A stretch of 64,000 nt of DNA, from NCBI RefSeq assembly GCF_008705135.1, contig NZ_CP023694.1, forward strand, positions 1 through 64,000, in the 5' to 3' direction. This DNA comes from Streptomyces coeruleorubidus (GTDB taxonomy: Bacteria > Actinomycetota > Actinomycetes > Streptomycetales > Streptomycetaceae). Below, in pieces: positions 4,986 through 50,077 of the stretch (its first letter is position 1; each line of letters begins with the position of its first letter). A model generated the notes under the pieces. It saw nothing but the letters and a program-made list of their open reading frames with translations. It ran no database searches and was not told where the DNA came from. The position numbers and the translations under genes were made by a program.

Positions 4986-5499
4986 CTTCGATCTCCCCAC
5001 TCCGCGCACTCGCACCGCTCGGACGCCCGTCGTCGACGGGCCGCCGAACGCAGGTACCCGTCCATCCGCCGCTTGCACAACAATGGGTGGTGGCCCGCCT
5101 GACCGACCGTCGGGCCGGACGGCGAGCACCGGGTGGGACAGCGCTACGGGCGAGGACGCGGCCCACGGAGGACCGTGGTGCGGTTCGCGCAGGTGGATGA
5201 ACACCAATCTGACACACCGCCACTGATGCCAACCTCGTGCCGTAATCCGGCATAGAAGTGACACACCAGCCTCAACGCCACAGCGGCGACGTCGTCCGGG
5301 CTGGCGATGACGCTGTGAAGTGGCGGCTGAGCGACACGGGCCTCTCACTTCCACACGGCAGTCAGATGGACGGAGTACGTCGCTCCGGCCGACGTGCCCG
5401 CCGCCGCTATCCCCTGACCGCCACCAGGTTCCCTGGCAGGCGCTACACAGGGATGCGCCCGGCGATGTCACTACCGGGGTCGTCCAGCAAGGCGAGGCG
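4986..5499. other. Non-coding or degenerate stretch
   Basis: This upstream region of the kinase contains open frames but none with convincing protein character. It should hold the kinase promoter; I see no clear -35/-10 pair. It borders the Ku and IS630 relics. Confidence 0.5.
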
Positions 5500-5668
5500 G
5501 GCGGGCCGCACGGGCAAGGGTAAGGAGCTGGACGTGGCGCTCGAGCTGATCGACCCTCTCAGCGGCCCGTGGGACCCCTCCCGCTACCACGACACCTACC
5601 AGTAGAAGGTGCGACAGTTGGCGAAAGCCGAGGGCCAGGAGACGCGGCGCCGAAGAGCCCCCTCAGGC
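5500..5668 (+). pseudogene. C-terminal fragment of a Ku (NHEJ) protein with in-frame stop
   Basis: The frame reads ELDVALELIDPLSGPWDP then SRYHDTYQ, a TAG stop at 5603-5605, and then in the same frame KVRQLAKAEGQET. Bacterial Ku proteins of actinomycetes end with a very similar block (WDPSRYHDTYxEKVRxLVxAKAEG), so the TAG appears to replace a Glu codon. Nothing upstream resembles the Ku beta-barrel core, so only the tail survives. It directly abuts the IS630 relic. Short match, hence moderate confidence. Confidence 0.5.
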
Positions 5669-5673
5669 GACGA

Positions 5674-6480
5674 ATGTCGTCGATGTTCGCGGTGGACGAG
5701 AAGCCGCAGATCCAGGCTCTGGAACGGACCGCACCGGCGCTGCCGATGCTGCCCGCAGTGCCCGAGCGGCGCAGCTTCGACTACGTCCGGCACGGCACGG
5801 TCGATCTGTTCGCCGCCCTGGGCACCGCGACGGGCAAGGTGATCGCGAAGCTGTCCGCACAGCACCGCGCCGTGGACTTCCGGGACTTCCTCGACGAGAT
5901 CGACCGCCAGACCGAGCCCGGCCTGGCGGTCCACGTGATCTGCGACAACCTCTCCGCCCACAAGGCGCCGGTGGTGCACACGTGGCTGCTCGCGCATCCC
6001 CGCTTCCACCTGCACTTCACCCCCACCTACTCGTCGTGGATCAACCAGGTCGAGCGGTGGTTCGCCGAGCTGGAACGGCGCTGCCTGGAGCGAGGAGTGT
6101 TCTGCTCACTGGACGACCTCAAGTCCGCACTCGAGGACCGGATCAAGGTCTGGAACGACCAGGCCAGGCCCTTCACATGGACCAAGACCGCCGATCAGAT
6201 CCTCGACCGCATCTGCCGCTACTGCTCACGCATCTCCGAACCGGCTCACCAGGACTGGGAACGCAGGAAGGGCGGCCACTGGACGATCACCCGTGACGGC
6301 GGCGAGGCGCTTGGCTGGATCGCGCTGGGCGGTATGGACTGCGACGACGGCATCGCCGGCGTCGGCTGCTGGGTGCTCCCAGCCGCCCGCGGTGCCGGTG
6401 AGCGCATTGGCGCCTCCCTGCATCCGCAGGTGACAACCCGTCAGGCACTCTCTTGGAGTGACCGGAGCGAAGCGACGTAG
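5674..6480 (+). pseudogene. IS630-family transposase, C-terminal half only
   Basis: From FAVDEKPQIQALERT (first catalytic Asp region) through VHVICDNLSAHK (second Asp) to YSSWINQVERWFAELERR (catalytic Glu) this is the DDE half of an IS630-type transposase. The N-terminal helix-turn-helix domains (about 150 residues) are missing; the sequence before 5674 is Ku-like instead. Beyond about 6250 the frame runs on without similarity to 6480. It cannot be autonomous. Confidence 0.85.
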
Positions 6481-6531
6481 TCATAGGTTTGGAGCCGGCC
6501 AGACGCTGTGGTGCGAGCGCGGAGAGGGACC

Positions 6532-6825
6532 TCACTCCTCGACGTCGACCACGACCCAGTCGCTGATTTCCTTCCACTGGCGGATCGCCTGCTGGTGGAA
6601 GGGGTGGACGAGATAGCGGTCGACCGCCTCCATGTCGTCCAGGAGTCCTTCGACCAGGAAGTCGTAGGCGATGTCCCGGGTGGACACGTTGCGCCCGTAG
6701 CGCCATTCGCGCAGGTCCGGCACCTCGCCTCCCACCTGGGCGGCGGTGCGTTCCGCTCCCATGGCCCGCGGGTCGGCCCAGTCCACCCCGGATTTGAACT
6801 TGAACAGGACGACGTGCCGTATCAC
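6532..6825 (-). CDS. Dabb-domain (dimeric alpha/beta-barrel) protein of the BacA-like cluster
   Basis: A 97-residue protein that begins at the GTG overlapping the chorismate mutase stop (GTGA), with GGAGG upstream. It reads IRHVVLFKFKSGVDW and ends with the HPFHQQ and WVVVDVEE segments usual for stress-responsive Dabb domains. Such domains form small barrels that often act as cyclases, decarboxylases or ligand-binding dimers. As the last gene of the bac-like operon it is a candidate for an extra step or for controlling stereochemistry of an unstable dihydro intermediate. No Dabb protein belongs to the bacilysin pathway of Bacillus, so the role here is open. Confidence 0.85.
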   Translation of the reverse strand: MIRHVVLFKFKSGVDWADPRAMGAERTAAQVGGEVPDLREWRYGRNVSTRDIAYDFLVEGLLDDMEAVDRYLVHPFHQQAIRQWKEISDWVVVDVEE

Positions 6826-7124
6826 GACGCGGCCCCTCCAGATTGCGCGGCGGCGGGCTGTAACGTGCCGGCGCCCCGGCACAGTTTGAGGACGCTCATC
6901 GCGATCTGTGTCCCGCACTCGCCGAGGCCGTCGCGGTAGCGGGCGAGAATCTCCATCTCCCGGGTGAACACCGTGCGCGGGCCACCGGCATCGGTGCGGA
7001 GCTTCTGGATGCCCGAGGACACCCGGGCGCGCTGGGTGAGCAGTTCGATGATGTGTGCGTCGAGCGCATCGATCGCGTCGCGCTCCTGTCGGATGCGGGA
7101 GGTGCTGTCGACCATCTCGGTCAC
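6822..7124 (-). CDS. AroQ-type chorismate mutase
   Basis: One hundred residues, all helical, with IRQERDAIDALDAHIIELL followed by RARVSSGIQKLR, the usual AroQ arrangement of an N-terminal Arg, DxxD/E and the RxxxxxxI/xxxK core. It converts chorismate to prephenate in the cytoplasm. Prephenate is the substrate of the BacA-like decarboxylase five genes upstream, so this copy probably feeds the cluster and is not a housekeeping enzyme. It starts 18 bp after the aminotransferase and its stop overlaps the next start. Confidence 0.85.
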   Translation of the reverse strand: MTEMVDSTSRIRQERDAIDALDAHIIELLTQRARVSSGIQKLRTDAGGPRTVFTREMEILARYRDGLGECGTQIAMSVLKLCRGAGTLQPAAAQSGGAAS

Positions 7125-7142
7125 GATGGGGCTCCTTTCGGT

Positions 7143-8333
7143 TCACTTGCTCGGTGTCATGGGTGTACAGGCCGGGAAGTCGGTCAGTCGCCGGGCCGCC
7201 TCGCGGAGCCGTTCCTCCGGGGCGAGCAGGCTCACGCGGACGTATCCTTCGCCGTGCTCGCCGAACCAGCGGCCGGGTGCCACCGCCAGGTGGGCGCGGG
7301 ACAGCAGCTCGTCGGCGAAGGCGACGGATCCCCCGCTGCCGGGTGGTACCGGCAACCAGGCGAAGATCGAGCGGGGTGGGTCGACGGACCATTCGGAGCC
7401 TTGGAGTCCGTCCAGGAAAACGTTCCGGCGCCGTTCGTACGTCTTCACCAGGCGCCGGACACTGTCCTGGGGTCCGGTCAGGGCCGCGACCGCCGCCCGC
7501 TGGATGAACGGGGGGAGCGAGACGTAGTAGTGCTCCTGGAGGAGATTGATCGCGGCGATGACGTCTCGGTGTCCGACCACGGCACCGATCCGCCAGCCGG
7601 CCATGTTGTAGGTCTTCGACAGGGAGATGAACTCGACGCCCACATCCTTGGCGCCGGCCGTCTCCAGAAAGGAGACGGGGGTCTGCCCGCCGATGTCCAA
7701 CGCCCCGTAGGCGAAGTCGGATGCCACGATCACGCCGTGCTCGGCGGCGAAGCGGACGGTGTCTTCGTAGAACCCGTGTGGGACCGTTACCGAGGTCGGA
7801 TTGTTGGGATAGTTGAGGAACATCAGCTTGGCCCGTTCGCACGTGGCCGGGTCGAGGGCGGCGTAGTCGGGCAGGAAGCCGTTTTCCCGCAGGAGTGGGA
7901 GGGGATGCATGCGGGCCTGGGCGAGGAGCACGCCCGCCCAGTAGTCGGGGAAGGCGGGATCGGGCATCAGGCACACGTCGCCTGGGTTGAGGATGCACTG
8001 GCTGATCTCGACGAGGCCGGCCTTCGCGCCGAACAGGATCGCCACCTCGGTCTCCGGATCCAACCGCACGCCGTGCCGCGTCGCGTACCAGGCGCTGATG
8101 GCGTCCTTGAGTTCGAGCAGCCCGGAGAAGGCCGGGTAGCGGTGGGTGACGGGGTCGAGCACTTCCGTGCGGAGCGCCTCGACAATGTGCTGTGGCGTGG
8201 GCAGGTCGGGATTGCCCTGGCACAGGTTGATGACGTCCTCGCCCGATCTGACCAGGTCGTCGACCCTGGCTCCGGTCGTCGCGAACGAACTCCTCGGCAG
8301 GCTTCGGAGCCGGTTTGCCCACTTGGTCCTCAC
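7143..8333 (-). CDS. BacF-like PLP aminotransferase
   Basis: A fold-type I aminotransferase of 396 residues; the GTG start overlaps the MFS stop (GTGA) with GGGGAGG upstream. Key blocks: LCQGNPDLPTPQHIVEALR, FLNYPNNPTS, ASDFAYGA and SLSKTYNMAGWRIG, where the Lys binds PLP. These segments follow Bacillus BacF closely, more so than general aspartate or LL-diaminopimelate aminotransferases. In bacilysin biosynthesis BacF transaminates the reduced keto acid to tetrahydrotyrosine. With BacA-, BacB- and BacG-like genes beside it, the same reaction is the best prediction here. Confidence 0.88.
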   Translation of the reverse strand: MRTKWANRLRSLPRSSFATTGARVDDLVRSGEDVINLCQGNPDLPTPQHIVEALRTEVLDPVTHRYPAFSGLLELKDAISAWYATRHGVRLDPETEVAILFGAKAGLVEISQCILNPGDVCLMPDPAFPDYWAGVLLAQARMHPLPLLRENGFLPDYAALDPATCERAKLMFLNYPNNPTSVTVPHGFYEDTVRFAAEHGVIVASDFAYGALDIGGQTPVSFLETAGAKDVGVEFISLSKTYNMAGWRIGAVVGHRDVIAAINLLQEHYYVSLPPFIQRAAVAALTGPQDSVRRLVKTYERRRNVFLDGLQGSEWSVDPPRSIFAWLPVPPGSGGSVAFADELLSRAHLAVAPGRWFGEHGEGYVRVSLLAPEERLREAARRLTDFPACTPMTPSK

Positions 8334-9607
8334 GTGTCCTCCCCTTCGCTTCCTCCCTTCGCCCGGGACACCGCCGCAGGCTCGGGGCTGCTTGTTGCCG
8401 CGTTGGACGCCCAACCGCTCAGGCCGGCGGCGACGGCTGTGATGCCGGCGCAGGCGCACCCCACGGCGAGGAAGCCGTGCGCCGTGAACAAGGGGGCGAG
8501 CGCGGCGGCCCCCGCGGCCACTGCGACATTGGTCGCGAGGCTGTAGAAGGCCAGGATGGTTCCTCGGTGGCGCTGTGAGCTTTCGCTGAGCAGCGTGCTG
8601 AGCAGGGTGACGACCAGACTCTGCAGAATGCCCCAGCCGAAGAGGCACACCGCCAGTGGTGCCGTCCAGTGGATGAGCAGCGGCACACCCACCAGCGCCG
8701 GCACCAGCCCCGCCAGCGAGAAGGTCAGGACGCGCTCCTTGCCCCACTGGTCGGCGAACCTGCCCGTGACGAAGCTCGAGGCGAACCCCAGTCCGTAGAG
8801 AAGGATCATGACGCCGGTCAGGGAGCTGCTGGAGCCGTACCGGTACTCCAGGGCGGTGCCGAGAAACGTGTACAAGCCGTACCAGCCGAGCATCACCAGG
8901 AACGTTGCCAGCACGTACGCCGGCACTCTCGGCGCCAGGAAGGCCCGGGTCACCGACCGGGCCCATCCCACCGACGGCTCGGGGCTCTCCTCCGGCACGG
9001 TGTGACCTCCGGTGCCGGGCCGCCGACCGCCGCCCATACGGGGCATCACCGACAGGACGAGGACACCAAGCAGTGACAACAGGCCGAAGGTCCACCGCCA
9101 GCCCGCCCACTGCCCGACGAAGGCCCCTATCGGCACGCCCAGCACCAGCGCGAGCGACCAGCTCGACACAAGGATGCCCATGGCCTTGGCGCGGTGCTCG
9201 TAGGGGATCTGGTCACCGACGAAGGCGTAGGCAGTGGGCACGAAAGCACCCGCCGCCAGGCCGGCCAGCGCCCTGCCCGCGAAGAACACGCCCGTCCCCG
9301 TGGCAAACGCGCAGAGCACCGTGCCCAGGATGAACACCGCCATCCCGATCGCCAGGCTGAGCCGGCGCGACACCCGGTCGCCGAGGGGCGCGAAGAGCAG
9401 CGCGCCGACCGCCGTCGCGGCACCGTAGACACTCACTGACAGCGCCATGACGCCGACCGTCGTGTCGAACGACGTGGCCATGCGCATCAGCAGCGGTGAG
9501 ACGACCAGTTCCTCCGAGCCGACCGCAAAGATTCCCGCCATCAGTCCTGAGACCGTCAGCAGGGGGAAGCCGGGCGGGTTCCCTCCGCTGCCTTGTTGGT
9601 GCGACAC
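8330..9607 (-). CDS. MFS exporter of the BacA-like cluster
   Basis: A 425-residue protein with about twelve membrane helices and the MFS motif A region GALLFAPLGDRVSRR after helix 2. The N-terminal half (ELVVSPLLMRMATSF, GALAGLAAGAFVPTAYAF-like segments) looks like the DHA1 drug-proton antiporters of the AraJ/YdhP type, so it is not an obvious BacE orthologue. Its position between the reductase and aminotransferase genes implies export of the product and self-protection. The GTG start sits immediately behind a GGAG; a slightly downstream start is possible. Confidence 0.88.
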   Translation of the reverse strand: MSHQQGSGGNPPGFPLLTVSGLMAGIFAVGSEELVVSPLLMRMATSFDTTVGVMALSVSVYGAATAVGALLFAPLGDRVSRRLSLAIGMAVFILGTVLCAFATGTGVFFAGRALAGLAAGAFVPTAYAFVGDQIPYEHRAKAMGILVSSWSLALVLGVPIGAFVGQWAGWRWTFGLLSLLGVLVLSVMPRMGGGRRPGTGGHTVPEESPEPSVGWARSVTRAFLAPRVPAYVLATFLVMLGWYGLYTFLGTALEYRYGSSSSLTGVMILLYGLGFASSFVTGRFADQWGKERVLTFSLAGLVPALVGVPLLIHWTAPLAVCLFGWGILQSLVVTLLSTLLSESSQRHRGTILAFYSLATNVAVAAGAAALAPLFTAHGFLAVGCACAGITAVAAGLSGWASNAATSSPEPAAVSRAKGGSEGEDT

Positions 9608-9660
9608 TCCAGCAAGCCCTTCCCACGCCGATGCGGCTGTTCAGCGGATCGGGTCCGCTC

Positions 9661-10428
9661 TCACAGGCACGTCAACTGCCCGCCGTCGACCGAGATCTGC
9701 TGCCCGGTCAGGTAGGACGCCTCGTCCGAAGCCAGGAACCCGATGACGGCGGCGACCTCGTGTGCCTCGCCGGGGCGGTCCATGGGGATCGGCTGTCTCA
9801 TCCGGTCCTCCGCGTCCGCCCGCGGGATACCAGCGGTCCGGACCAGGTGGTCCATGGCCCGGTCGTACCGCCGCGTCCGGACGGTGCCGGGGTGGACGCA
9901 GTTCACCGTAACGGCGTGCGGTGCGTACCAGCTCGCCAGATACTTGCTGGCATTGGCGACGGCCGCGTTGACCAGACCGGAGAGGAACAGGCCGTGGGCG
10001 GGCTCCTTCCCGGCGTTGCCGACGATGTTGACGATCCGCCCGAAGCCGTTTCGGATCATGACCGGCGCAGCGGTTTTGACGGTTGCCAGATACGGCACCA
10101 ATTTCTGCTGCATCGCGGCCCTCACGTCGTCGGCTCTGATGTCGTCGAGGGATCCTGGTGACGGGCCGGGCGCATTGTTGACGAGCACGTCGATCCTGCC
10201 GAACCGACGGTCCACCTCGCCCGCCAGTTCCTCGCAGAAGGACGGCTCGGTGACGTCACCGGAAATCACGTGGGCCGTCTTTTCGGCGCCCGCCTCCTCG
10301 ACGACCTCCTCCAGCGCCGTGCGACTGCGGGCACACAGGACCGTCACATATCCTTTCGCGTTCAGGTGCAACGCGGTGGCCCGCCCGATGCCCTGGCTGG
10401 CCCCCAGAACGAGCGCCACACGTGTCAC
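9661..10428 (-). CDS. BacG-like short-chain reductase
   Basis: A classical-size SDR of 255 residues; the GTG start overlaps the bicupin stop. It has the cofactor loop LGASQGIGRA, the NNAPG segment and FGRIVNIVGNAGKEP, with ITGQQIS-type ending YLTGQQISVDGG. These features match BacG, the NADPH reductase that reduces en-H2HPP to tetrahydro-HPP in bacilysin biosynthesis, and not BacC: BacC has a normal YxxxK, while BacG-type proteins carry a replaced Tyr as here (SGLVNAAVANASK). It is the only SDR in the operon, so the dihydroanticapsin oxidation step is missing. Confidence 0.88.
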   Translation of the reverse strand: MTRVALVLGASQGIGRATALHLNAKGYVTVLCARSRTALEEVVEEAGAEKTAHVISGDVTEPSFCEELAGEVDRRFGRIDVLVNNAPGPSPGSLDDIRADDVRAAMQQKLVPYLATVKTAAPVMIRNGFGRIVNIVGNAGKEPAHGLFLSGLVNAAVANASKYLASWYAPHAVTVNCVHPGTVRTRRYDRAMDHLVRTAGIPRADAEDRMRQPIPMDRPGEAHEVAAVIGFLASDEASYLTGQQISVDGGQLTCL

Positions 10429-11150
10429 TGGGTTTCCCGATCGGTGTCCTGTTCGTTTTTCCGCCTGGTTTTCTGTCCGGGAACCCGATGGTAGCGAGGC
10501 GGGATGAAAATGTTGACCGAGCGCGCCACGTCGGCGTGAGGATTCACGGCGCCGTGTCCCTCCTGGCTCGCACAGAAGTACGTGCCGCCGAACCGCAGCT
10601 CGTGGCTGGATTCCTCGACCGTCATGTCGTAGCGCCCTTCCAGGCACACCCCTATCTGTTCGTGGGAATGCCGGTGATAGGGCATCTCGCCGCCGCCCGG
10701 GATGTCCGCGATCATCAGCTCGATCCAGTCGGCGACGAAGAAGGTGACGTCCATCCCGACGAACTTGCGCGATTCGAAGGGCTCGAGGAAGTAGTCGCTC
10801 GGCGCGGGATAGATCTCGCCCGGCTTGCTGCGTCGGAGCTCCAGTAAGACGGCTTCGGACTCGGTGGGGTTCACAGCCGAGAAGCTGACGCCCGGAGGGG
10901 CCACGCAGACGTGACGCTCGGGTTCCATCAGCCGGGTGACCTCCCCGACCGTCGTGGAGATCCGGCCCTGTACGACCATCGCGACCTGCGCCTGCCCGAT
11001 GGGTCGGCCCGGGACACGGGCGCCGGGCGGTAAGACGGAAACCCTCACCTCCGTGTCGTCGCGCCAGTAGGACTCCACCCGCACCCCGTCATCGTGGAGA
11101 GCCACGTCGGCGGCGGGGAAGTAGCGTCGTTCCTGTACGTGGGTGGTCAT
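10425..11150 (-). CDS. BacB-like bicupin isomerase with one metal site apparently lost
   Basis: A 241-residue double cupin. It follows BacB, the isomerase that moves the ring double bond of dihydro-hydroxyphenylpyruvate, over its full length (DTEVRVSVLPP, APSDYFLEPF, VTFFVADWIELMIADIPG, SVNIFIPPRYHR). The C-terminal cupin keeps its metal ligands in MPYHRHSHEQIGV and GHGAVN. The N-terminal cupin has PGRPIGQAQVAM and PGVSFSAVN where BacB has His ligands, so this site should not bind metal in the usual way. A strong AGGAGG lies before ATG 11150, one base after the decarboxylase stop. Confidence 0.9.
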   Translation of the reverse strand: MTTHVQERRYFPAADVALHDDGVRVESYWRDDTEVRVSVLPPGARVPGRPIGQAQVAMVVQGRISTTVGEVTRLMEPERHVCVAPPGVSFSAVNPTESEAVLLELRRSKPGEIYPAPSDYFLEPFESRKFVGMDVTFFVADWIELMIADIPGGGEMPYHRHSHEQIGVCLEGRYDMTVEESSHELRFGGTYFCASQEGHGAVNPHADVARSVNIFIPPRYHRVPGQKTRRKNEQDTDRETQ

Positions 11151-11151
11151 G

Positions 11152-11763
11152 TCAGTCCTTCCTCCTCGCGAAGACAGTCCATGTCATCGGAATCCGCGAG
11201 AACTTGTAGACGAACTTCAGGTGGTGCTGCCGGGCCGCCTCCTCGTTCGTGATGGCGACGTTGTACCGGCCGTCGGCCACATCACAGGCCGCCTGGCTCG
11301 TGGAGTCGGCGGTGGCCATCTGCAGGGGCCGGCCGAGGTGGTAGCGCACCAGCGGAATGGGCGCGGGGTGCGAAACGACGGTTTCACTCTCGAGCAGTTC
11401 CTCGCGGAAGACGAAGTCGTCCCGGATGGCCAGGCCGTACTCCGGGGTGCTCCCACGGAAGACGATCGCCGGTTCCAACCCGGGGTGCATGTAGAAGGCG
11501 TTGATGCCGGGATAAGCGTGCGCAACCAGGACCAGATCGACCCGGCCTTCTGTGAGCGCGTCCACGCATCGCTCGTACGTGTCCTCCAGAACGATCCGTA
11601 ATCGCGCGCCGTCCGCGACACAGTGCGACATCATCTGGGCCACGTACTCACTGCTGGTCCCGGCTGGCCCCAGCGTCCCCAGTTGTAAGGAACCTGATTC
11701 GTCGTCGGGAATGCGTGCGATCAGCTCTTGCCTTTCGACATCCGGAATCCGGAGTATTTCCAT
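11152..11763 (-). CDS. BacA-like prephenate decarboxylase (non-aromatising)
   Basis: A 203-residue protein, the same length as BacA, with LGTLGPAGTSSEYVAQ, VAHAYPGINAFYMHPG, TPEYGLAIRDDF, VSHPAPIPLVRY, ADSTSQAA, AITNEEAARQ and IPMTWTVFARR. These blocks line up with BacA and AerD/SalX-type prephenate decarboxylases, which remove CO2 from prephenate without aromatising the ring, giving dihydro-4-hydroxyphenylpyruvate. The fold is that of prephenate dehydratase, but the regulatory ACT domain is absent. It is the first gene of the seven-gene operon; GGGGGAG precedes its ATG. Confidence 0.92.
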   Translation of the reverse strand: MEILRIPDVERQELIARIPDDESGSLQLGTLGPAGTSSEYVAQMMSHCVADGARLRIVLEDTYERCVDALTEGRVDLVLVAHAYPGINAFYMHPGLEPAIVFRGSTPEYGLAIRDDFVFREELLESETVVSHPAPIPLVRYHLGRPLQMATADSTSQAACDVADGRYNVAITNEEAARQHHLKFVYKFSRIPMTWTVFARRKD

Positions 11764-11833
11764 ACTCCACTCCCCCTTCAGGCGACGGGAAGTCGCAGCT
11801 CACATCGCCGGTGCCCAACCAGATGTTCAACAC

Positions 11834-11862
11834 GGTAACCGTCTACTTCCTGAGACCGTCAA
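11834..11862 (-). promoter_or_regulatory. Candidate promoter of the BacA-like operon
   Basis: On the minus strand TTGACG (11862-11857) is followed after 17 bp by GTTACC (11839-11834). Spacing and -35 fit a housekeeping promoter; the -10 is weak. The start of the decarboxylase lies about 70 bp downstream. Confidence 0.35.
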
Positions 11863-11904
11863 AAGCCGTCGCTTCTTTCCGGCCACCCACCCCCCTGCCG
11901 CCGC

Positions 11905-11927
11905 GCCTGTCACCCAACGTGACAGGC
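11905..11927. promoter_or_regulatory. 9-bp inverted repeat upstream of the BacA-like operon
   Basis: GCCTGTCAC and GTGACAGGC are separated by CCAAC. The site is 43 bp upstream of the candidate -35 box, and a second palindrome, GTTGCGCAAC, lies at 11960-11969. It could be an operator; no regulator gene is linked except the PucR-type gene at 12253. Confidence 0.4.
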
Positions 11928-12252
11928 ACCCATCTCACTTCACTGACCTGGCGCCTCCGGTTGCGCAACACAAACGCACAGTTAGGTTGTTTGCCCCCGA
12001 ACCACACGGGTACTCACCGCCGTCGGCGGTACTGTGTATCCGCGCCGTTTTTCACCAGACGCACAGACCGGCACGAGATGTGTGGTTGACCAAAGAGGGA
12101 CCTCAGAAAGCTCCGGGTTGGCAGTCGCTTTCCAGCGATCTACAGCGCCTCGGTGAAGGCACCTGTCCGGGTATCCCACACTGATGGCACCGAGAACGAG
12201 GCACGATTCCTGGACCGCTCGCGGACGCGGTTGTGGACGGTCGAAGTACGCG

Positions 12253-13392
12253 TCAGCTGACCCGAAGACCGACCGCCAGCGTCAGTTCAAGGACCCGGTG
12301 TGGCGAGGCGAGATCCGGAAACAGCTCCCGCAGCTGCGACATCCGGTACCGGACTGTCTGAGGATGGACGAACAACGCCGCCGCCACCTCGTTCCGCCTG
12401 CCCTGGTGCAGCAGCCACGCCCGCAACGTCTCCTCCAGTCGCTGTGCGGTCGCGACAGGCAAGGTCCGCAACGGTGCCAGGGCTCGGGCACGCAGGTCTG
12501 CGAACGCGTCCGCGTCGGCGCTCAGCACCAGCTCGGGCAGGTGGTCCTCGGTGTCGCGGATGTCAGAGGAGAGGGAGCGCGCGCGTACGGCTCGTGCGTA
12601 CGAGGCGAACGCACGAGTCCATGGCCGGGCCGGGCCGACCACGGCGGTGCGGTCGGTCAGCTGCCGCAAGAGATGTGATCGGTCGGCATCGGGGACGAGC
12701 AGCACACCGGTGGCATCCGGCAGATCGTCGAGGACGAGGGTGCTCGGGTCGAGCGCGCGGTAGGCAGGCCGGGCCTGGTCGGCGGGCAGCAGGACCGCGG
12801 TCAGCGAAACCGGAGGCTGCCACCCGGCTCGTTGAGCAGAGGCCAGCAGCACGTCCGGGCTCGCGCCGGCGAGGAGGTCGCGGGCCAGGTGTTCCAGGTG
12901 GCGCTCGTGGGCCCTGCCCCGGGCGGCCAGTTCGTCGGCGTGGCCCGCGGCGCTCGCGGCGGAGAGCTCGTCGATGTAGGCGAAGGTCAGCTCGGCGAAC
13001 TTGGCGACCTCGGCGGCGGGCAGACCTGCGGGTACGGCACCCGCTGCCAGGCATCGCCAGGCCACGCGGGCGCCGACGCGGTATGCGCTGAGCAGGGCGT
13101 CCATCGAGCGACCGTCGCGCACCTCGCCGCGGCCCAGCTCGTAGGCTGCGTCACCGGCGTCGCCGCCTGTGGCGTTCCCGCTCGCGAGGTCCAGGTAGTG
13201 CCCCAGTGCGGTGCGGACGGCTCGGCGGATGGTTCCGCCCATGCTGCCCGAAAGGGCGTTGGCGTAGGAAGGGACCTCGTCGATGATCGCCTGGACGACC
13301 TCGTCGGCGGTGGTCTTCAGCGCGGCCCGAAGTGCGGTGACCGTCGTCTCATCCAGGGCCAGTTCGCTGGCCCTCCGGATTGCATGGCTCAC
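12253..13392 (-). CDS. PucR/CdaR-family transcriptional regulator
   Basis: A 379-residue regulator. Its C-terminus has the PucR-type helix-turn-helix: LRAWLLHQGRRNEVAAALF, then HPQTVRYRMSQLRELF. The middle holds a GGDEF-like/PucR domain without catalytic motifs, and the N-terminal ~170 residues are the helical RsbT co-antagonist-like domain common in actinomycete members. It is divergent from the ferredoxin reductase and desaturase genes, with about 85 bp between starts, so it probably controls them. It could also act on the bac-like operon downstream on the same strand. Confidence 0.88.
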   Translation of the reverse strand: MSHAIRRASELALDETTVTALRAALKTTADEVVQAIIDEVPSYANALSGSMGGTIRRAVRTALGHYLDLASGNATGGDAGDAAYELGRGEVRDGRSMDALLSAYRVGARVAWRCLAAGAVPAGLPAAEVAKFAELTFAYIDELSAASAAGHADELAARGRAHERHLEHLARDLLAGASPDVLLASAQRAGWQPPVSLTAVLLPADQARPAYRALDPSTLVLDDLPDATGVLLVPDADRSHLLRQLTDRTAVVGPARPWTRAFASYARAVRARSLSSDIRDTEDHLPELVLSADADAFADLRARALAPLRTLPVATAQRLEETLRAWLLHQGRRNEVAAALFVHPQTVRYRMSQLRELFPDLASPHRVLELTLAVGLRVS

Positions 13393-13478
13393 GTTTTGTT
13401 CCCTGCAGACAATTCAGCCGACCAGATTCACGTCCTGCGGTCAGGACTTTACGCCTTGAGGCGCAGCAAGCTGGAGTC

Positions 13479-14534
13479 ATGACGAGTACTGCCCTGCGCA
13501 GCAGGGCGTGGAAACTGCTCGAGATGGTCACGACGCCCCTGCTGCCGTCGGACTACCTCGACCTGGTCAGCCCGCTGCGTGCGGGCGCTGACCTGCGTGG
13601 GCGCATCGAGGCCGTGCACCCCGAGACGAATGACGCCGCGACCATCGTGATCAGGCCGGGACGGGGCTGGCGCGGCCACACAGCCGGTCAGTACGTGCGG
13701 ATCGGGGTCGACGTCGACGGGGTGCGCCTGTGGCGTGCCTACTCCCTCACCTCCCCGACAAACCGCCAGGACGGCCGCGTCACGATCACCGTGAAGGCGA
13801 TCCCGGACGGCAAGGTCAGCAACCACCTGGTCCGCAGGGCGAAACCGGGCACGCTGATCCAGCTCGACCAGCCGACCGGTGACTTCGTGCTGCCACAGGC
13901 AAAGCCCGCCAAGGTGCTCTACCTGACGGCCGGCAGCGGCATCACGCCCGTGATGGGCATGCTGCGCGACACCGAGTTCGACGACGTCGTCATGGTCCAC
14001 TGCGCGCCACAGCCGCAAGACGTGATCTTCCGCAACGAACTGCACGACCTGGTCGCGCACAAGAAACTGCGGCTCACCGAGGTGCACACCGACACAGACG
14101 GCATGCTCGACGTCGCCCGTCTCGACGAACTCGTGCCCGACTGGGCCGAGCGCGAGACCTGGGCCTGCGGGCCCGCGGGCCTGCTCGACGCCGCCGAAGA
14201 GCACTGGGCCGGGCACGGCGTCCAAGAGCGCCTGCACACCGAACGCTTCCGCCCCAGCACCGTCGTCACCGGCGACGGCGGCGAGGTCACATTCAGCGCC
14301 ACCGGCAAGACCGTCGACGCGGACGGCGCCACACCGTTGCTGGACATCGGCGAGGAGGCCGGCGTGCTCATGCCCTCCGGGTGCCGCATGGGCATCTGCT
14401 TCGGCTGCGTCACGCCGCTCAAGGCGGGCGCCGTCCGCGACCTGCGCACCGGCGAGATCACCGAGGCCGAGCCCGGCGTCCTCATCCAGACCTGCGTGTC
14501 CGCCGCGGCGGGCCCCTGCGACATCGAACGGTAG
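13479..14534 (+). CDS. Ferredoxin reductase with C-terminal 2Fe-2S domain
   Basis: A 351-residue electron-transfer protein. ATG 13479 is chosen because GGAG lies five bases before it. Domains: FAD-binding barrel with RAYSLTSP, NAD(P)-binding domain with LTAGSGITPVMGML, and a plant-type ferredoxin with CRMGICFGC plus a later Cys (QTCVSAA). It resembles Rv3230c of mycobacteria, which passes electrons from NADPH to the desaturase DesA3. The desaturase gene follows after 7 bp, supporting the same pairing. Confidence 0.92.
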   Translation: MTSTALRSRAWKLLEMVTTPLLPSDYLDLVSPLRAGADLRGRIEAVHPETNDAATIVIRPGRGWRGHTAGQYVRIGVDVDGVRLWRAYSLTSPTNRQDGRVTITVKAIPDGKVSNHLVRRAKPGTLIQLDQPTGDFVLPQAKPAKVLYLTAGSGITPVMGMLRDTEFDDVVMVHCAPQPQDVIFRNELHDLVAHKKLRLTEVHTDTDGMLDVARLDELVPDWAERETWACGPAGLLDAAEEHWAGHGVQERLHTERFRPSTVVTGDGGEVTFSATGKTVDADGATPLLDIGEEAGVLMPSGCRMGICFGCVTPLKAGAVRDLRTGEITEAEPGVLIQTCVSAAAGPCDIER

Positions 14535-34924: not shown

Positions 34925-35392
34925 GCGACTTCACGATGCACACCGCTCATTGCCGCACTGACCTGCTACAAACCCGGCCACCGCTCTAGGCTGATCTACC
35001 GGCCACGCAGAGACGACGGCCGACGCGACGGGCGCAAGAGCTTCTCCTTGCGCGACTACCGGGACCTGCTGATCGCCGCCCACCAGCAGTTCGGCGACCC
35101 GATCGTCCTGGTCTGGGACAACCTCAACGTCCACAAAGCCGCCGACCTGCGGCAGTGGGCGGCAGCCCGGGAGTGGCTGACCATCTACTACCTGCCGCCC
35201 TACGCACCCGACCTCAACCCCGTCGAAGGCATCTGGTCTCTCCTGCGACGCGGATGGCTCTCCAACGTCGCCCTCAGTACCCCCGAACACCTTGACCAGC
35301 GCATCCGACGCGGCTTACGCCTCATCCAGTACCGCAGTCACCTCATAGGCGGCTGCCTCGCCGAGACCGGCCTGACCATCGGACCCGCCTGA
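34925..35392 (+). pseudogene. IS630-family transposase, C-terminal part
   Basis: LIAALTCYKPGHRSRLIYRP, FGDPIVLVWDNLNVHKAADL (second catalytic Asp) and LPPYAPDLNPVEGIWSLLRR (catalytic Glu) identify the DDE domain of a different IS630 subgroup from the copy at 5.7 kb. The N-terminal DNA-binding domains and first Asp region are missing, so the element is dead. No terminal inverted repeats were located. Confidence 0.85.
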
Positions 35393-41173: not shown

Positions 41174-41905
41174 ATGAGCTCTCCTCAGCCTGTCCACGCC
41201 TGGGACGAACCAGAGGGGATCGCGCCGCGCGGCACCCTCGTCCTCCTGCCCGGCCGCGGTGAACACGGCGGCGTGTACGAGCGGTTCGGCAGCCGCATCG
41301 CCGCCGACGGCTACCGCGTCCGCGCCTTGCCCGACCCCTCCCCCGCGCCGGAGACGGTCACCGACCAGGCCGCCAAACTGCTGCGCGACGAGACACTGCC
41401 CGGCCCCCGGGTACTGGCCGGCTCCGACACCGGGGCCCTGTACGCGGCGTGGCTCGCGGCGCGGGGCACACCGGGCCTGGACGCGCTGATCCTTGCCGGG
41501 CTGCCCACCGCGCCGCGCGCCCTCGCGGCGACGCCCGACTGGGAGGCCGAACTCGACCAGCGCACCGCCTGCCCCACGCACCGGGGCAGGCTCGCCTCCG
41601 ACGACGCGTTCCGGCGCGGTGCGCTCACGGACACGGCCGCTGCCGACCTGCCCACCCTGGAGGGCATCTCCGTCCCCGTCCTCGCCCTGCACGGCGCCGA
41701 CGACACGGTCAGCCCGCTCCCGGCGGCCGGCCTCACCTACCGCGCACTGCCCGGTGTGGAGCTGGTGAGCCTGGCCGGGACCCGGCACGACGCCCTCAAC
41801 GACGTCACCCACCGCACGGCCGCCGCCACGATCGTGCTGTTCCTGGAGCGGCTGCGGCTCTCCCCGGGCCTCGCGCCCATCGCCGTACGGGAGGACCTCG
41901 TATGA
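41174..41905 (+). CDS. Alpha/beta hydrolase of the organosulfur operon
   Basis: About 243 residues from ATG 41174 (ATG 41159 is an alternative; neither has a strong ribosome binding site). GTLVLLPGRGEHGGVYERFG at the start, a nucleophile elbow variant AGSDTGALYAAWLA with Asp in place of Ser, and VPVLALHGADDTVSP with the catalytic Asp region; a late His occurs in GTRHDALND. The Asp nucleophile would be like a dehalogenase. First structural gene of the operon; it may release sulfur compounds from esters or act on the desulfonated product. Confidence 0.8.
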   Translation: MSSPQPVHAWDEPEGIAPRGTLVLLPGRGEHGGVYERFGSRIAADGYRVRALPDPSPAPETVTDQAAKLLRDETLPGPRVLAGSDTGALYAAWLAARGTPGLDALILAGLPTAPRALAATPDWEAELDQRTACPTHRGRLASDDAFRRGALTDTAAADLPTLEGISVPVLALHGADDTVSPLPAAGLTYRALPGVELVSLAGTRHDALNDVTHRTAAATIVLFLERLRLSPGLAPIAVREDLV

Positions 41906-42753
41906 CCGCCCCGGTGCTGACCGGCGTGGCCGAGCTGCGCTCCCTGCTGCACAGCGGTGATCCGAGCCCCGTCGTCCTCGACGTGCGGTGGCGGCTCGGC
42001 GACCCGCACGGCCGCGAGCACTACCTCAAGGAGCACATCCCGGGCGCCGTCTATGTGGACCTCGACACCGAACTGGCCGCCCCGCCCACGCCCGAGGGCG
42101 GTCGCCATCCCCTCCCCGACCCAGCGGACCTCCAGGCGGCGGCGCGTCGCTGGGGCCTCACCACGGGCCGCCCGGTGGTCGTCTACGACGACAACGGCAA
42201 CACCGCCGCCGCCCGCGCCTGGTGGCTGCTGCGCTGGGCGGGAGTCGAGCGGGTGACTCTGCTCGACGGGGCGCTGGGCGCCTGGCGCGCGGCCGGACTC
42301 CCCACGGAGACCGGCGAGTCCGAGGCTCCCGCGCCGGGCGACATCGTGCTCAGCCCGGGGCGGTTGCCCGTGCTGGACGCGGACGCGGCGGCCGAACTCG
42401 CCCGTGACGGTGTGCTGCTGGACGCCCGCGCCGCCGAGCGGTACCGGGGCGAGAGCGAACCGGTCGATCCGCGTGCCGGGCACATCCCCGGTGCGCTGTC
42501 CGCCCCCACGGGCGACAACCTCGATCCCGACGGGACTTTCCGCGACGTGGAGGAACTCGCCGTGCGGTTCACGGCGCTGGGTGCCGACGACGCGACCGAG
42601 GTGGGGGTCTACTGCGGCTCCGGCGTCACGGCCGCCCACCAGATCGCGGCGCTCGCCCACGCCGGCATCCCCGCCGCGCTGTACCCCGGCTCCTGGTCCG
42701 CCTGGTCCGCCGACCCCGGCCGCCCGGCCGTGCTGGGCGAACAGCCGTACTGA
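41902..42753 (+). CDS. Rhodanese-type sulfurtransferase (two-domain)
   Basis: A 283-residue thiosulfate/3-mercaptopyruvate sulfurtransferase with tandem rhodanese domains. The first (VVLDVRWRLGDPHGRE, HIPGAVYVDLD) is inactive-type; the second carries the catalytic Cys 238 in VGVYCGSGVTAAHQIA. The loop CGSGVTA is typical of TST/SseA proteins. It overlaps the hydrolase stop (ATGA). In this operon it would move sulfane sulfur released from organosulfur compounds to a thiol acceptor. Confidence 0.92.
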   Translation: MTAPVLTGVAELRSLLHSGDPSPVVLDVRWRLGDPHGREHYLKEHIPGAVYVDLDTELAAPPTPEGGRHPLPDPADLQAAARRWGLTTGRPVVVYDDNGNTAAARAWWLLRWAGVERVTLLDGALGAWRAAGLPTETGESEAPAPGDIVLSPGRLPVLDADAAAELARDGVLLDARAAERYRGESEPVDPRAGHIPGALSAPTGDNLDPDGTFRDVEELAVRFTALGADDATEVGVYCGSGVTAAHQIAALAHAGIPAALYPGSWSAWSADPGRPAVLGEQPY

Positions 42754-42793
42754 ATCCCCGACACTCTCCCGACTCCTCCCCGAGAGGCCGCCC

Positions 42794-43690
42794 ATGCCCT
42801 CCCCGAACACCGCCGTCTCCGGAACGTCTCCGCCGACGCACGCACCGGCACGGCCGACGCCACCGGCCCCGACCCCCACGAAGAGCGACCCCCCTGCACG
42901 CCCACGCCGGCGCCCCGCCCTCCGCGTGCCGCGCGGTGTGCGCCGTGCCGCCGGGCCCCTCGGGCTGCTGGTGGTGTGGTTCCTGGGAAGCACCACCGGT
43001 GTGCTGCCCGAGTCCGTCCTCGCCTCCCCCGTCGACGTCGTCCAGCGGGCCGTCGATCTGACCGGGACCGGTGAACTGCCGCAGGCGATCGCCGCGTCCG
43101 GCCGCCGCGCCGCGATCGGGTTCCTCATCGGTGCGGCCGTCGCCCTCGCCCTGTCGCTCACGGCGGGACTGTTCCGGCTGGGCGAGGACGTGATCGACGC
43201 GTCGATGGGCATGTTCCGGGCCATCCCCTGGGTGGGCCTGATCCCGCTGTTCATCGTCTGGTTCGGCATCGACGAGACCCCGAAGATCGCTCTGGTCGCC
43301 CTCGGTGTGACGTACCCGCTGTACTTCAACATCTACGGCGGAATCCGCTCCGCCGACGCCCAGCTCATCGAAGCGGGACGGATGGCGGGGCTCGGCCGCA
43401 TCGGTCTCATCCGGTACGTGATCCTGCCGTCCGCACTGCCCGGAGCGCTGGTGGGTCTGCGGTACGCGCTGTCCACCGCCTGGCTCGCCCTGGTCTTCGC
43501 CGAGCAGGTCAACGCGGACGCCGGCATCGGCTACCTGATGAGCAATGCCCAGCAGTACTTCCAGACCGACGTCATCGTCCTGTGCCTGGCCGTCTACGCG
43601 GTCCTCGGCCTGCTGTGCGACTTCGCCGTACGGCTGCTGTCGCGACGGCTGCTGGCCTGGCGTGCCTCGTTCGACGGCGAAGGAGCGTGA
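42794..43690 (+). CDS. Sulfonate ABC transporter permease (SsuC-like)
   Basis: A 298-residue permease with a long Pro/Thr-rich N-terminus and five or six membrane helices. Characteristic blocks are AIPWVGLIPLFIVWFGID and IEAGRMAGLGRIGLIRYVIL, the taurine/alkanesulfonate-type EAA loop. The ATPase gene follows after 5 bp (or overlaps, depending on the start). It forms the membrane channel for the binding lipoproteins encoded further down the operon. Confidence 0.92.
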   Translation: MPSPNTAVSGTSPPTHAPARPTPPAPTPTKSDPPARPRRRPALRVPRGVRRAAGPLGLLVVWFLGSTTGVLPESVLASPVDVVQRAVDLTGTGELPQAIAASGRRAAIGFLIGAAVALALSLTAGLFRLGEDVIDASMGMFRAIPWVGLIPLFIVWFGIDETPKIALVALGVTYPLYFNIYGGIRSADAQLIEAGRMAGLGRIGLIRYVILPSALPGALVGLRYALSTAWLALVFAEQVNADAGIGYLMSNAQQYFQTDVIVLCLAVYAVLGLLCDFAVRLLSRRLLAWRASFDGEGA

Positions 43691-43695
43691 CCGAC

Positions 43696-44430
43696 ATGAC
43701 GGAGACGGCGAACGTGAAGGTCCGCGGGCTGACCCGGGCCTTCGACGACAAGACGGTCATCGACGGGCTGGATCTCACCCTGCGCCGGGGCGAGTTCGTC
43801 GCGCTGCTCGGCCACAGCGGCTGCGGCAAGTCGACGCTGCTGAAGATCCTCGCCGGGCTCGACGACGAGACCGAGGGCGAGGTGAGCGTGCCGGAGCGCC
43901 GGTCGGTGGCCTTCCAGTCGCCGCGGCTGATGCCCTGGCTGCGGGTTTGGCGCAACGTCGTGCTCGGCCTGCCCGGGTCCCCGGACCGGGCACTCGCCGA
44001 GCGGTATCTGGCCGAGGTGGGCATCGAGGAGTACGCCGGCCGCTGGCCCAAGACCCTGTCCGGCGGCCAGGCCCAGCGCGTCTCCCTGGCCCGCGCTCTG
44101 GTGCGCGAACCCGAACTGCTTCTCCTCGACGAGCCGTTCGGCGCCCTGGACGCCCTCACCCGAGGCAAGGCACAGCGGCTGGTAGCGGATCTCTGGCAGC
44201 GGCACGGCTGCTCGGTGCTGCTGGTCACCCACGACGTGGAGGAGGCGCTGCTGCTGGCCGACCGGGTCCTGGTGATGGACGACGGGCGGATCGCGTACGA
44301 GGCCGAAGTCGGCCTGGAGCGGCCGCGCGACCTCGGCTCCCCCGACTTCGTACGACTCCGCGGCGAACTGCTGCACCGCCTGGGCGTCCACGACGCCTCG
44401 GCGCATCCCCTGGAAGAGGCACCCGCATGA
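43696..44430 (+). CDS. Sulfonate ABC transporter ATPase (SsuB-like)
   Basis: A 244-residue ATPase: Walker A GHSGCGKST, Q-loop in AFQSPRLMPW, signature LSGGQAQRVSLARAL, Walker B ELLLLDEPFGALD, and the switch His in LLVTHDVEEAL. All motifs intact. ATG 43696 is preferred over GTG 43687, as GGAG is at workable distance from the ATG but touches the GTG. SsuB/TauB group. Followed with 4-bp overlap by the binding protein. Confidence 0.93.
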   Translation: MTETANVKVRGLTRAFDDKTVIDGLDLTLRRGEFVALLGHSGCGKSTLLKILAGLDDETEGEVSVPERRSVAFQSPRLMPWLRVWRNVVLGLPGSPDRALAERYLAEVGIEEYAGRWPKTLSGGQAQRVSLARALVREPELLLLDEPFGALDALTRGKAQRLVADLWQRHGCSVLLVTHDVEEALLLADRVLVMDDGRIAYEAEVGLERPRDLGSPDFVRLRGELLHRLGVHDASAHPLEEAPA

Positions 44431-45416
44431 ACCCCGTCAACCGCATCAGCCGTGCGCTGAGCTCCGCACTCGCCCTCACCGCGCTCCTCGCCACCGCGGC
44501 CTGCGGCGGGAACAGCGAGGCCGCGTCCGGTGACTCCTCGTCGCGGGTGACCCTCACCATCGGCGACCAGGCGAAGAACCTGCAGACCCTGCTCAACGCC
44601 TCCGGCGCCCTCGAAGGCACGTCGTACGACGTGAAGTGGGCCGAGTTCGAGGGCGCGGCCCCGCTCTTCCAGGCCGTGCAGGCGGGTGCCGCGGACACCT
44701 CGTACGCCGCCGACCTCCCCACGCTCCAGGCCCTTTCCGGGCGTGTGCCGGTCAAGGCGGTGGGCGCCCTGCACAACGACGGCACGCACACCGGGATCGT
44801 GGTCCGTGACGACTCGTCGGTGAGGAGCGTGAAGGACCTCAAGGGCAAGAAGGTCGTGGTCTCCTCGGCGAAGGGGTCCATCGCCGAGTACCTGCTCGCG
44901 CACGCGCTTCAGCAGGCGGGGCTGAGCTACGACGACGTCAAGGTCCAGTATCTGCTACCGACCGACGCGCAGGCCGCGTTCACCTCGGGCAAGATCGAGG
45001 CGTGGGCCACCTTCGGGGTCTACAAGTCCGTCGCCGAGCAGCAGGGCGGCCGGCTCCTCGTCAACGGCGCCGACGGTCGCGTGAGCGGCTACGGCTTCAT
45101 CGGCGCCTCCGAGAAGGCACTGGCCGACCAGGGCAAGAAGGCCGCCATCTCCGACTACCTTCGCCGCCTGGACAAGGCTCTCGCCTGGTCGCGGGAACAT
45201 CCGGGCGACTACGCCAAGGCCATCCAGCAGACCAGCGGTGCCTCCCCCGAGATCGCGAAGGCCCTGGTGAGCCAGGCCAACAGCGAGCTGGAGCCGGTGA
45301 GTCCGCAGGTCGTCCAGGCCGTGCAGAAGGTCGGCGACACCATGCACGGCATCGGCGTCCTCAACCCCAACCCGACCGTCGCCGACCACGTCGACACCAG
45401 CCTCGTCAAGGAGTGA
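44427..45416 (+). CDS. Sulfonate-binding lipoprotein (SsuA-like) 1
   Basis: A 329-residue lipoprotein (lipobox TAAC in ALTALLATAACGGNSE). Blocks such as TLTIGDQAKNLQTLL, QAGAADTSYAADLPTLQALS, VKDLKGKKVVVSSAKGSIAE and TSGKIEAWATFGVYKSVAEQ are those of NMT1/SsuA-type binders. It captures alkanesulfonates or related compounds outside and delivers them to the SsuC/B-like transporter encoded just upstream. Confidence 0.92.
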   Translation: MNPVNRISRALSSALALTALLATAACGGNSEAASGDSSSRVTLTIGDQAKNLQTLLNASGALEGTSYDVKWAEFEGAAPLFQAVQAGAADTSYAADLPTLQALSGRVPVKAVGALHNDGTHTGIVVRDDSSVRSVKDLKGKKVVVSSAKGSIAEYLLAHALQQAGLSYDDVKVQYLLPTDAQAAFTSGKIEAWATFGVYKSVAEQQGGRLLVNGADGRVSGYGFIGASEKALADQGKKAAISDYLRRLDKALAWSREHPGDYAKAIQQTSGASPEIAKALVSQANSELEPVSPQVVQAVQKVGDTMHGIGVLNPNPTVADHVDTSLVKE

Positions 45417-45424
45417 GCCCCGCC

Positions 45425-50065: not shown

Positions 50066-50077
50066 AGGAGATTCTCC

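Follow-up and report, generated by a model that had tools for sequence, protein, structure and literature searches.

A bacilysin-related operon of Streptomyces coeruleorubidus and its apparent descent from an anticapsin-type cassette by loss of bacC

The operon and the assignment of its proteins

Seven minus-strand genes lie at 6532-11763 of a 64,000-nucleotide stretch of Streptomyces coeruleorubidus DNA (the window, meaning this whole stretch). By ORF reading all of them are open and coupled, transcribed in the order bacA, bacB, bacG, MFS, bacF, chorismate mutase and Dabb (Table 1), and the arrangement reported in a preliminary description of this DNA is confirmed as intact. The sole intergenic gap of more than 20 bp separates bacG from the MFS gene, at the position held by bacC in most relatives. 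Pfam matches to PDT, Cupin_2, adh_short, MFS_1, Aminotran_1_2, CM_2 and Dabb all scored above the curated cut-offs, and an Rfam search of 5400-13500 gave no matches.

Table 1. Genes and other features of the operon, in window coordinates
Feature	Position	Strand	Description
Upstream region	11764-12101	-	common to the window and ALI-76-A; likely promoter location
bacA-like	11152-11763	-	203 aa; non-aromatising prephenate decarboxylase family; PF00800 / PDT match
bacB-like bicupin	10425-11150	-	241 aa; 1 bp gap from bacA; Cupin_2
bacG-like SDR reductase	9661-10428	-	255 aa; 4-bp GTGA overlap, start over bacB stop; adh_short
bacC scar	9608-9660	-	53-bp bacG/MFS gap; bacC leader remnant, then conserved MFS leader
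MFS exporter (predicted)	8330-9607	-	425 aa; MFS_1
bacF-like class I/II aminotransferase	7143-8333	-	396 aa; 4-bp overlap with MFS gene; Aminotran_1_2
AroQ-type chorismate mutase	6822-7124	-	100 aa; 18 bp gap from bacF; CM_2
Dabb-family alpha/beta-barrel protein	6532-6825	-	97 aa; 4-bp overlap with chorismate mutase; predicted acid-base isomerase

Homologues of BacA, BacB, BacG and BacF of the bacilysin operon are all present. These assignments, proposed in the preliminary description, hold as far as sequence comparison has tested them, by trees for BacA and BacG and by best solved relatives for BacB, BacG and BacF. The BacA-like protein has 57 relatives, the nearest mainly from Streptomyces and several labelled BacA by their sources; a search of solved structures found no significant relative. 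In a quick, midpoint-rooted tree it belongs with the actinomycete cassettes (SH-aLRT 100), and their clade is joined to the BacAs of Firmicutes (96). The best solved relative of the BacB-like protein is BacB (3h7j, 219 bits versus 60 for the runner-up) and that of the BacG-like protein is YwfH/BacG (3u49, 209 bits versus 142), and a tree places the latter with the BacGs (100/100), nested within those from actinomycete cassettes that have BacC (97/94). The BacF-like protein is 73-80% identical to BacF of other cassettes and is most similar to aminotransferase 6l1l (365 bits versus 275), a chain matched over its full length by Bacillus spizizenii BacF. The MFS protein is related, at 46-49% identity, to the product of the gene directly upstream of Bacillus bacA in 5 of 13 loci tested, and no match to BacE was found in these 13.

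The chorismate mutase matches NF005894 with 97.4 bits against a cut-off of 73. Its gene is found in 10 of 15 cassettes including that of the window, is missing from four and is cut by a contig end in one, and an essential role was thereby ruled out. The preliminary description took this enzyme as support for a self-contained pathway; the gene is indeed present, but being optional it argues weakly for that view.

Cassettes of the form bacABGC-MFS-bacF-(CM)-(Dabb), termed anticapsin-type for their gene content, occur in S. xanthophaeus, S. goshikiensis, plasmid pSMg1-1, WM6378, WM4235, CB02261, Actinomadura rudentiformis and other actinomycetes. Their proteins are 56-82% identical to those of the window, and their flanks vary from locus to locus. 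Seven plasmid records (S. goshikiensis, Mg1, ADI95-16) cover most of the operon; pSMg1-1 has both SDR genes, and in each of the other six the matched stretch is annotated with two SDR-type names. In these actinomycetes the same genes recur in the same order, bacA-bacB-bacG-(C)-MFS-bacF-(CM)-(Dabb), but the chorismate mutase and Dabb genes are optional and nearly all of these cassettes carry the bacC that the window lacks.

Other systems are less alike. Relative to the Bacillus bacilysin operon (bacABCDE, bacF and bacG), the window is without BacC, BacD and BacE, has the chorismate mutase and Dabb as extra members and differs in gene order. Prephenate decarboxylase clusters devoid of BacB, in Photorhabdus and at the Streptomyces loci L066, L069 and L092, are presumably of the dihydrophenylalanine type; they pair a BacA-family gene with a same-strand Dabb gene but, unlike the window, have no BacB or BacG. 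L069 encodes a class IV aminotransferase, an OCD-family protein and DUF2000, whereas the window has a class I/II BacF, BacB and BacG and does not display the dihydrophenylalanine-type layout. The cyanobacterial aeruginosin genes AerD-AerE-AerF encode a decarboxylase, a bicupin and an SDR in the same order as the window.

Loss of bacC and selection on the remaining genes

Of 14 other actinomycete cassettes, 13 (L147 among them) have bacC placed between bacG and the MFS gene, the sole exception being L145, the sister cassette of Streptomyces sp. ALI-76-A. The gene is absent from the window operon, and in the 53-bp gap the leaders of both neighbours, bacC and MFS, are still recognisable when compared with nine BacC-bearing cassettes. 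No BacC orthologue was found in the whole 9,335,698-bp genome, nor was one of BacD, for which a single partial match of 38 bits was obtained. The preliminary description was thus right that the operon lacks both. As a search of 12 relatives gave no BacD, its absence is usual for such cassettes. In a cassette tree rooted on Firmicutes, the window and L145 form a clade (100/100) nested in BacC-bearing cassettes (95/91 and 91/99), and loss of bacC amounts to one change. Judged from these sequences, the window operon derives from an anticapsin-type cassette of eight genes by loss of bacC.

The MFS protein of L145 is identical to P0179 of ALI-76-A. This cassette carries the same bacC scar, is 88-94% identical to the window at the protein level and is alike in gene content except for bacG, of which there are only fragments. 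It sits inside a 7.76-Mb contig, whereas the window operon is 6.5 kb from a contig end, adjoining a transposase gene. The two align by blastn at 87% identity from about 340 bp before bacA, and homology ends at the Dabb stop codon on the other side. When the upstream regions of 11 cassettes were aligned and judged by eye, clear similarity was seen only between these two.

Because the scar is common to both, the split between the window and ALI-76-A must have followed the loss of bacC. Estimates of dN/dS between them, covering the six shared genes and excluding the fragmented bacG, were 0.25 for bacA, 0.18 for bacB, 0.35 for MFS, 0.17 for bacF, 0.37 for the chorismate mutase and 0.18 for Dabb, with bootstrap upper limits below 1 for all six. 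The six shared genes have been under purifying selection since the split. The operon may accordingly be regarded as a naturally occurring deletion of bacC from a cassette in which selection maintains the other genes.

BacB metal sites and the Dabb protein

The metal positions of the N-terminal cupin of window BacB are R, I, Q and F in place of H, H, Q and H in Bacillus, while those of the C-terminal cupin are kept as H, H, Q and H; the possession of both sites that characterises bacilysin BacB is therefore not found here. A window-specific change was ruled out, as loss of the N-terminal site is common to all 13 Dabb-bearing cassettes. No Dabb gene was found near any of the 28 loci with an intact N-terminal site, and among the 14 loci where this site is degraded 13 have Dabb and one is on a cut contig. 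The association yields a Fisher p of 6e-11, a value that counts related loci and has few independent events behind it since the N-terminal site changes once on the cassette tree. The C-terminal site is intact in 32 of 40 loci; the eight with a degraded one are all cyanobacterial, and their bicupins retain the N-terminal site. This pattern, the one taken to mark the aeruginosin Choi cluster (AerD/E/F), is the reverse of that in window BacB.

The window Dabb has the Dabb fold with the His/Tyr/His positions of olivetolic acid cyclase (OAC) conserved as H4, Y71 and H77, and is 18% identical to OAC and other Dabb-fold proteins. The same residues occur in Dabbs outside the pathway and say little about the reaction. 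The cassette Dabb is nested among those of the BacB-less prephenate decarboxylase clusters, and a Dabb gene is present in 47 of 57 loci without BacB. Prephenate decarboxylases are thus often accompanied by a Dabb protein that has no name in this role, a point of relevance to further pathways of the family. No description of such a partner, or of a bacC-less cassette, was found in the portions of the CC-licensed PMC literature available to us.

These patterns suggest that the N-terminal cupin of BacB may have given way to Dabb, which would make the C-terminal cupin the candidate for epoxidation. One may speculate further, in an idea we consider rather doubtful, that the two cupins are two enzymes. 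The N-terminal one would be a dihydro-hydroxyphenylpyruvate isomerase whose place in actinomycetes has been taken by a Dabb acquired from a different prephenate-decarboxylase cluster, while the epoxide of bacilysin and anticapsin would be the work of the C-terminal one. The window, without bacC, and ALI-76-A, without bacC and bacG, would then be natural deletion strains with a core under selection, exporting epoxidised but unfinished amino acids. A review tabulates BacB as forming the epoxy keto acid (PMC9147277); what is new here is the proposed division of roles between its domains. As the C-terminal site tracks bacilysin/anticapsin-type loci and the N-terminal site trades places with Dabb, epoxidation becomes testable by domain.

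The predicted product and its alternatives

If the proteins act like their characterised homologues, the chorismate mutase would supply prephenate, BacA would decarboxylate it without aromatisation, Dabb and/or BacB would shift a double bond to give the conjugated keto acid, BacG would reduce the ring, BacF would transaminate the product and the MFS protein would export the amino acid. Dabb would stand in for the N-terminal cupin, which no longer has its metal ligands. Epoxidation would precede the missing step, following the B. subtilis order, and the C-terminal cupin of BacB is the likeliest candidate for it. In B. subtilis, epoxide formation comes early in the pathway, and a bacC mutant contains the epoxide-bearing dihydroanticapsin (PMC9147277). 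For this reason the probable end product of the cassette minus bacC, exported as a free amino acid, is not anticapsin but its C7-alcohol, dihydroanticapsin. The suggestion in the preliminary description that a free non-aromatic amino acid is made and exported is still the best reading, but its stand-alone tetrahydrotyrosine design gives way to a cassette derived from the eight-gene anticapsin type, and the C7-hydroxy epoxide form displaces tetrahydrotyrosine as the expected compound. With bacC deleted naturally and the other genes kept by selection, the C7-hydroxy amino acid may bring the strain a benefit of its own.

Tetrahydrotyrosine is the second-likeliest product. Its release without an epoxide, with BacA, BacB, BacG and BacF acting as they do in vitro and nothing adding the epoxide, seems unlikely. 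All four genes are open in the window, and reconstitution of tetrahydrotyrosine in vitro reportedly used these same four proteins. The epoxide-forming enzyme appears unsettled in the literature consulted, which allows for plain tetrahydrotyrosine as the product; against this stand the intact C-terminal cupin site and the epoxide-bearing dihydroanticapsin of the B. subtilis bacC mutant (PMC9147277). We consider it improbable that the cassette is decaying, with bacC lost first, bacG following in the sister strain and nothing useful being made. The bacG fragments in ALI-76-A could mean such a gradual decay, bacC is deleted in both cassettes and the window copy lies near a contig end beside a transposase gene, but the six shared genes are open and have stayed under purifying selection since a split that followed the bacC loss. 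The window MFS clade moreover comprises 12 sequence clusters (one being the window's own) of 417-437 aa, among which bacC was seen to be missing in ALI-76-A as well; protein clusters at 90% identity were dropped as a bacC test for this clade, being uninformative because conserved BacC and BacA collapse into few clusters.

Replacement of BacC by another SDR, so that the strain still makes anticapsin, is quite improbable. At an E of 1e-15 or better, 69 SDRs of the genome match BacC, one of them being the cassette BacG, and any of them might in principle serve; the best are 41-42% identical to actinomycete BacC, and Bacillus BacCs are 53-57% identical to the actinomycete ones. However, the eight best that were tested all fell outside the BacC group (92/91) in a tree, none of the 69 apart from BacG lies within 50 kb of the operon, and cassettes that have BacC conserve it well (mean 81%). 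Least of all do we expect the amino acid to be incorporated by a peptide assembly line encoded elsewhere, a highly improbable reading even though the related AerD/E/F feed one in cyanobacteria (PMC10143770): the operon's own predicted exporter gene is kept under selection, a simple gene call detected no gene of megasynthase size within the window, and no gene family outside the cassette itself recurs around the 12 cassettes compared.

Free anticapsin has been reported from S. griseoplanus (PMC6315555 and PMC9293202), which fits the absence of BacD from the 12 relatives. A cluster of strain JV178 was matched to anticapsin by software (PMC5754491), and this strain has relatives of the window BacA and MFS proteins.

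The operon and the loss of bacC

The preliminary description of a seven-gene operon encoding BacA-, BacB-, BacG- and BacF-like proteins, an MFS protein, a chorismate mutase and a Dabb protein was confirmed by gene positions and coupling, family matches, solved relatives and phylogeny. The genes are coupled, with stop and start codons that overlap or lie 1-18 bp apart, except at the junction of bacG with the MFS gene, where the gap is 53 bp. All seven proteins matched the expected Pfam family, and the chorismate mutase matched an NCBIfam equivalog above its cut-off. The best solved relatives were BacB (3h7j), BacG/YwfH (3u49) and, for BacF, 6l1l, which is Bacillus BacF by full-length match. BacA had no significant relative among solved structures and was placed by the tree in a cassette BacA clade joined to the Firmicute BacAs.

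The 53-bp gap is a scar at the place where relatives carry bacC, and it retains, next to bacG, the beginning of the bacC leader and then the MFS leader. The search for near BacA sequences among 392 Streptomyces genomes gave seven positives, the window's own included, and a single near relative, L145 in genome G578; its MFS protein and the one of Streptomyces sp. ALI-76-A are identical. The scar is also found in L145, with no indels between the two, and bacG is there reduced to fragments, short pieces at 9016-9173 between bacB and the MFS gene. The best matches elsewhere in the ALI-76-A genome, 39% to BacG and 44% to BacC, are too low for orthologues. In a tree of BacA, BacB and BacF (17 rows, Firmicute root; L024, a cassette cut by its contig end, was excluded as bacF is missing from its contig), the window and L145 form one clade (100/100) within BacC-bearing cassettes (95/91, 91/99), and the loss of bacC is one change. 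The stand-alone tetrahydrotyrosine pathway suggested previously is supported in part: in the window's genome no orthologue of BacC was found (the best SDRs reach 41-42%, and the eight best fall outside the BacC group) and no BacD, but the nesting among BacC-bearing cassettes and the scar mark a pathway that has lost bacC.

Between the window and L145, dN/dS is 0.17-0.37 for all six shared genes, bacG being outside the comparison, and every upper limit stays under 1, that of the chorismate mutase being the highest at 0.84. Since the scar is common to both, this selection postdates the loss of bacC. The PucR-type regulator gene probably falls outside the cassette, since homology to ALI-76-A ends before it. 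Bases 1-64000 of a single contig of 9,335,698 bp (9.34 Mb) make up the window, which puts the cassette about 6.5 kb away from a contig end, perhaps a chromosome end.

Relatives of the cassette

A BacA-alignment scan of named genomes, from which the best 80 of 121 relatives were kept, gave 79 loci. A BacC orthologue lies between bacG and the MFS gene in 12 of 12 cassettes (L016-L024, L027, L119 in genome G309 and L136 on plasmid pSMg1-1), which have the window's genes in identical order, plus bacC. L147 is a thirteenth such cassette; L146, L148 and L149 were taken as L017, L027 and L023 and not counted again. The BacCs of the ten near cassettes (L016-L024, L027) match Bacillus BacC at 53-57%, and the best solved relative of that in L017 is dihydroanticapsin 7-dehydrogenase (5itv). 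No BacD match was found within 9 kb of any of the 12 BacC-bearing cassettes, where the contig allows. Apart from the cassette genes, no gene family recurs in the flanks, and the cassette thus looks like a movable, self-standing unit. With the window and L145 included, the chorismate mutase gene is present in 10 of 15 cassettes and absent from four, and the Dabb gene is present in 13 and absent from L019; L024 is the remaining, truncated cassette in both counts.

The cassette exporter matches at 45-49% an MFS gene that in Bacillus (L028-L041) immediately precedes bacA, the ywfA position, and is related to this gene and not to BacE. This relationship suggests that the Bacillus gene is part of the bacilysin system. 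In the Bacillus pumilus locus L033, bacC matches occur in two pieces (11270-11990; 54% and 80%), which suggests a frameshift or a sequencing error.

BacB cupin sites and Dabb

Four positions per cupin, which we take from structural work on BacB to be the metal ligands, were read in 40 loci with BacB adjoining BacA, in columns set on the Bacillus sequence. The N-terminal site (H,H,Q,H) was intact in 28 loci, none with Dabb near, and degraded in 12, of which 11 have Dabb near and the twelfth, L024, stops 1.7 kb past bacB. When L145 and L147, which share the N-site loss, are added, the Dabb profile is matched within 9 kb in 13 of 14 degraded loci versus 0 of 28 intact ones, some contigs being shorter than 9 kb on one side. 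The actinomycete cassette that branches deepest on the three-protein tree, L019, lacks Dabb and keeps both cupin sites. The C-terminal site was intact in 32 of the 40 loci and degraded in eight cyanobacterial ones (0 to 3 of 4 ligands left), whose layout is that of AerD-AerE-AerF.

Among BacA-family loci without BacB, Dabb lies within 9 kb in 47 of 57, on the same strand every time, a sample that includes at least two duplicate records (L069/L125, L070/L134) and nine near-identical Photorhabdus loci. In four of the ten lacking it (L048, L056, L067, L080) one flank or both fall short of 5 kb; in the others (L047, L055, L060, L071, L085, L126) neither flank is shorter than 7 kb. Because of this redundancy, and because the cassette tree shows the N-site changing just once, the link between N-site loss and Dabb, drawn from sequence comparison, is suggestive rather than proven. 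The window's genome holds three Dabb genes in total.

One BacB-less prephenate decarboxylase cluster (L069:5390-12960) encodes a chorismate mutase, a VitK2_biosynth protein, Dabb, DUF2000, a 474-aa protein with no Pfam match, a class IV aminotransferase, a BacA-like protein, an OCD-family protein and a class I/II aminotransferase. The ORF list of Photorhabdus L073, of which one protein was scanned, resembles it.

Proposed pathway, product and neighbouring genes

Gene content, ancestry and selection were observed here, and we infer all catalytic steps of a pathway in which chorismate mutase would form prephenate, BacA would decarboxylate it, and Dabb would move the double bond, standing in for the N-terminal cupin of BacB. 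The C-terminal cupin would then install the epoxide, BacG and BacF would perform reduction and transamination, and the MFS protein would export the product. In a 2009 study, BacB activity was reportedly lost on mutation of the N-terminal cupin. One review describes BacB as an isomerase and lists it in a table as the maker of epoxy-3E-H2HPP (PMC9147277). The two are compatible with a split of labour between the BacB cupins, without demonstrating it, and the comparison yields a testable idea on the roles of BacB and Dabb.

According to the same review, the epoxide is put in early, and a B. subtilis bacC mutant contained dihydroanticapsin and dihydrobacilysin (PMC9147277). By analogy with this mutant, and since BacD is absent, free dihydroanticapsin is the predicted product. 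Anticapsin has been reported from S. griseoplanus (PMC6315555, PMC9293202), and in strain JV178 software matched a cluster to anticapsin (PMC5754491). JV178 has BacA and MFS relatives, both on a contig of one length.

Elsewhere in the window, the plus-strand gene run listed last below resembles an operon for organosulfur scavenging, in which the FAD-linked oxidase is unusual.

Features of the window
Feature	Position	Strand	Remarks
DDE_3 transposase gene or fragment	5569-6480	+	3' end 51 bp from Dabb stop codon; convergent with cassette
Seven-gene operon	6532-11763	-	
Cassette exporter (MFS)	8330-9607	-	
PucR-type regulator gene	12253-13392	-	upstream of cassette, same strand
DDE_3 transposase gene or fragment	35048-35392	+	
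Gene run	41902-50632	+	rhodanese, ABC permease and ATPase, two NMT1-like binding proteins, luciferase-like monooxygenase, acyl-CoA dehydrogenase-like protein, FAD-linked oxidase, FMN reductase
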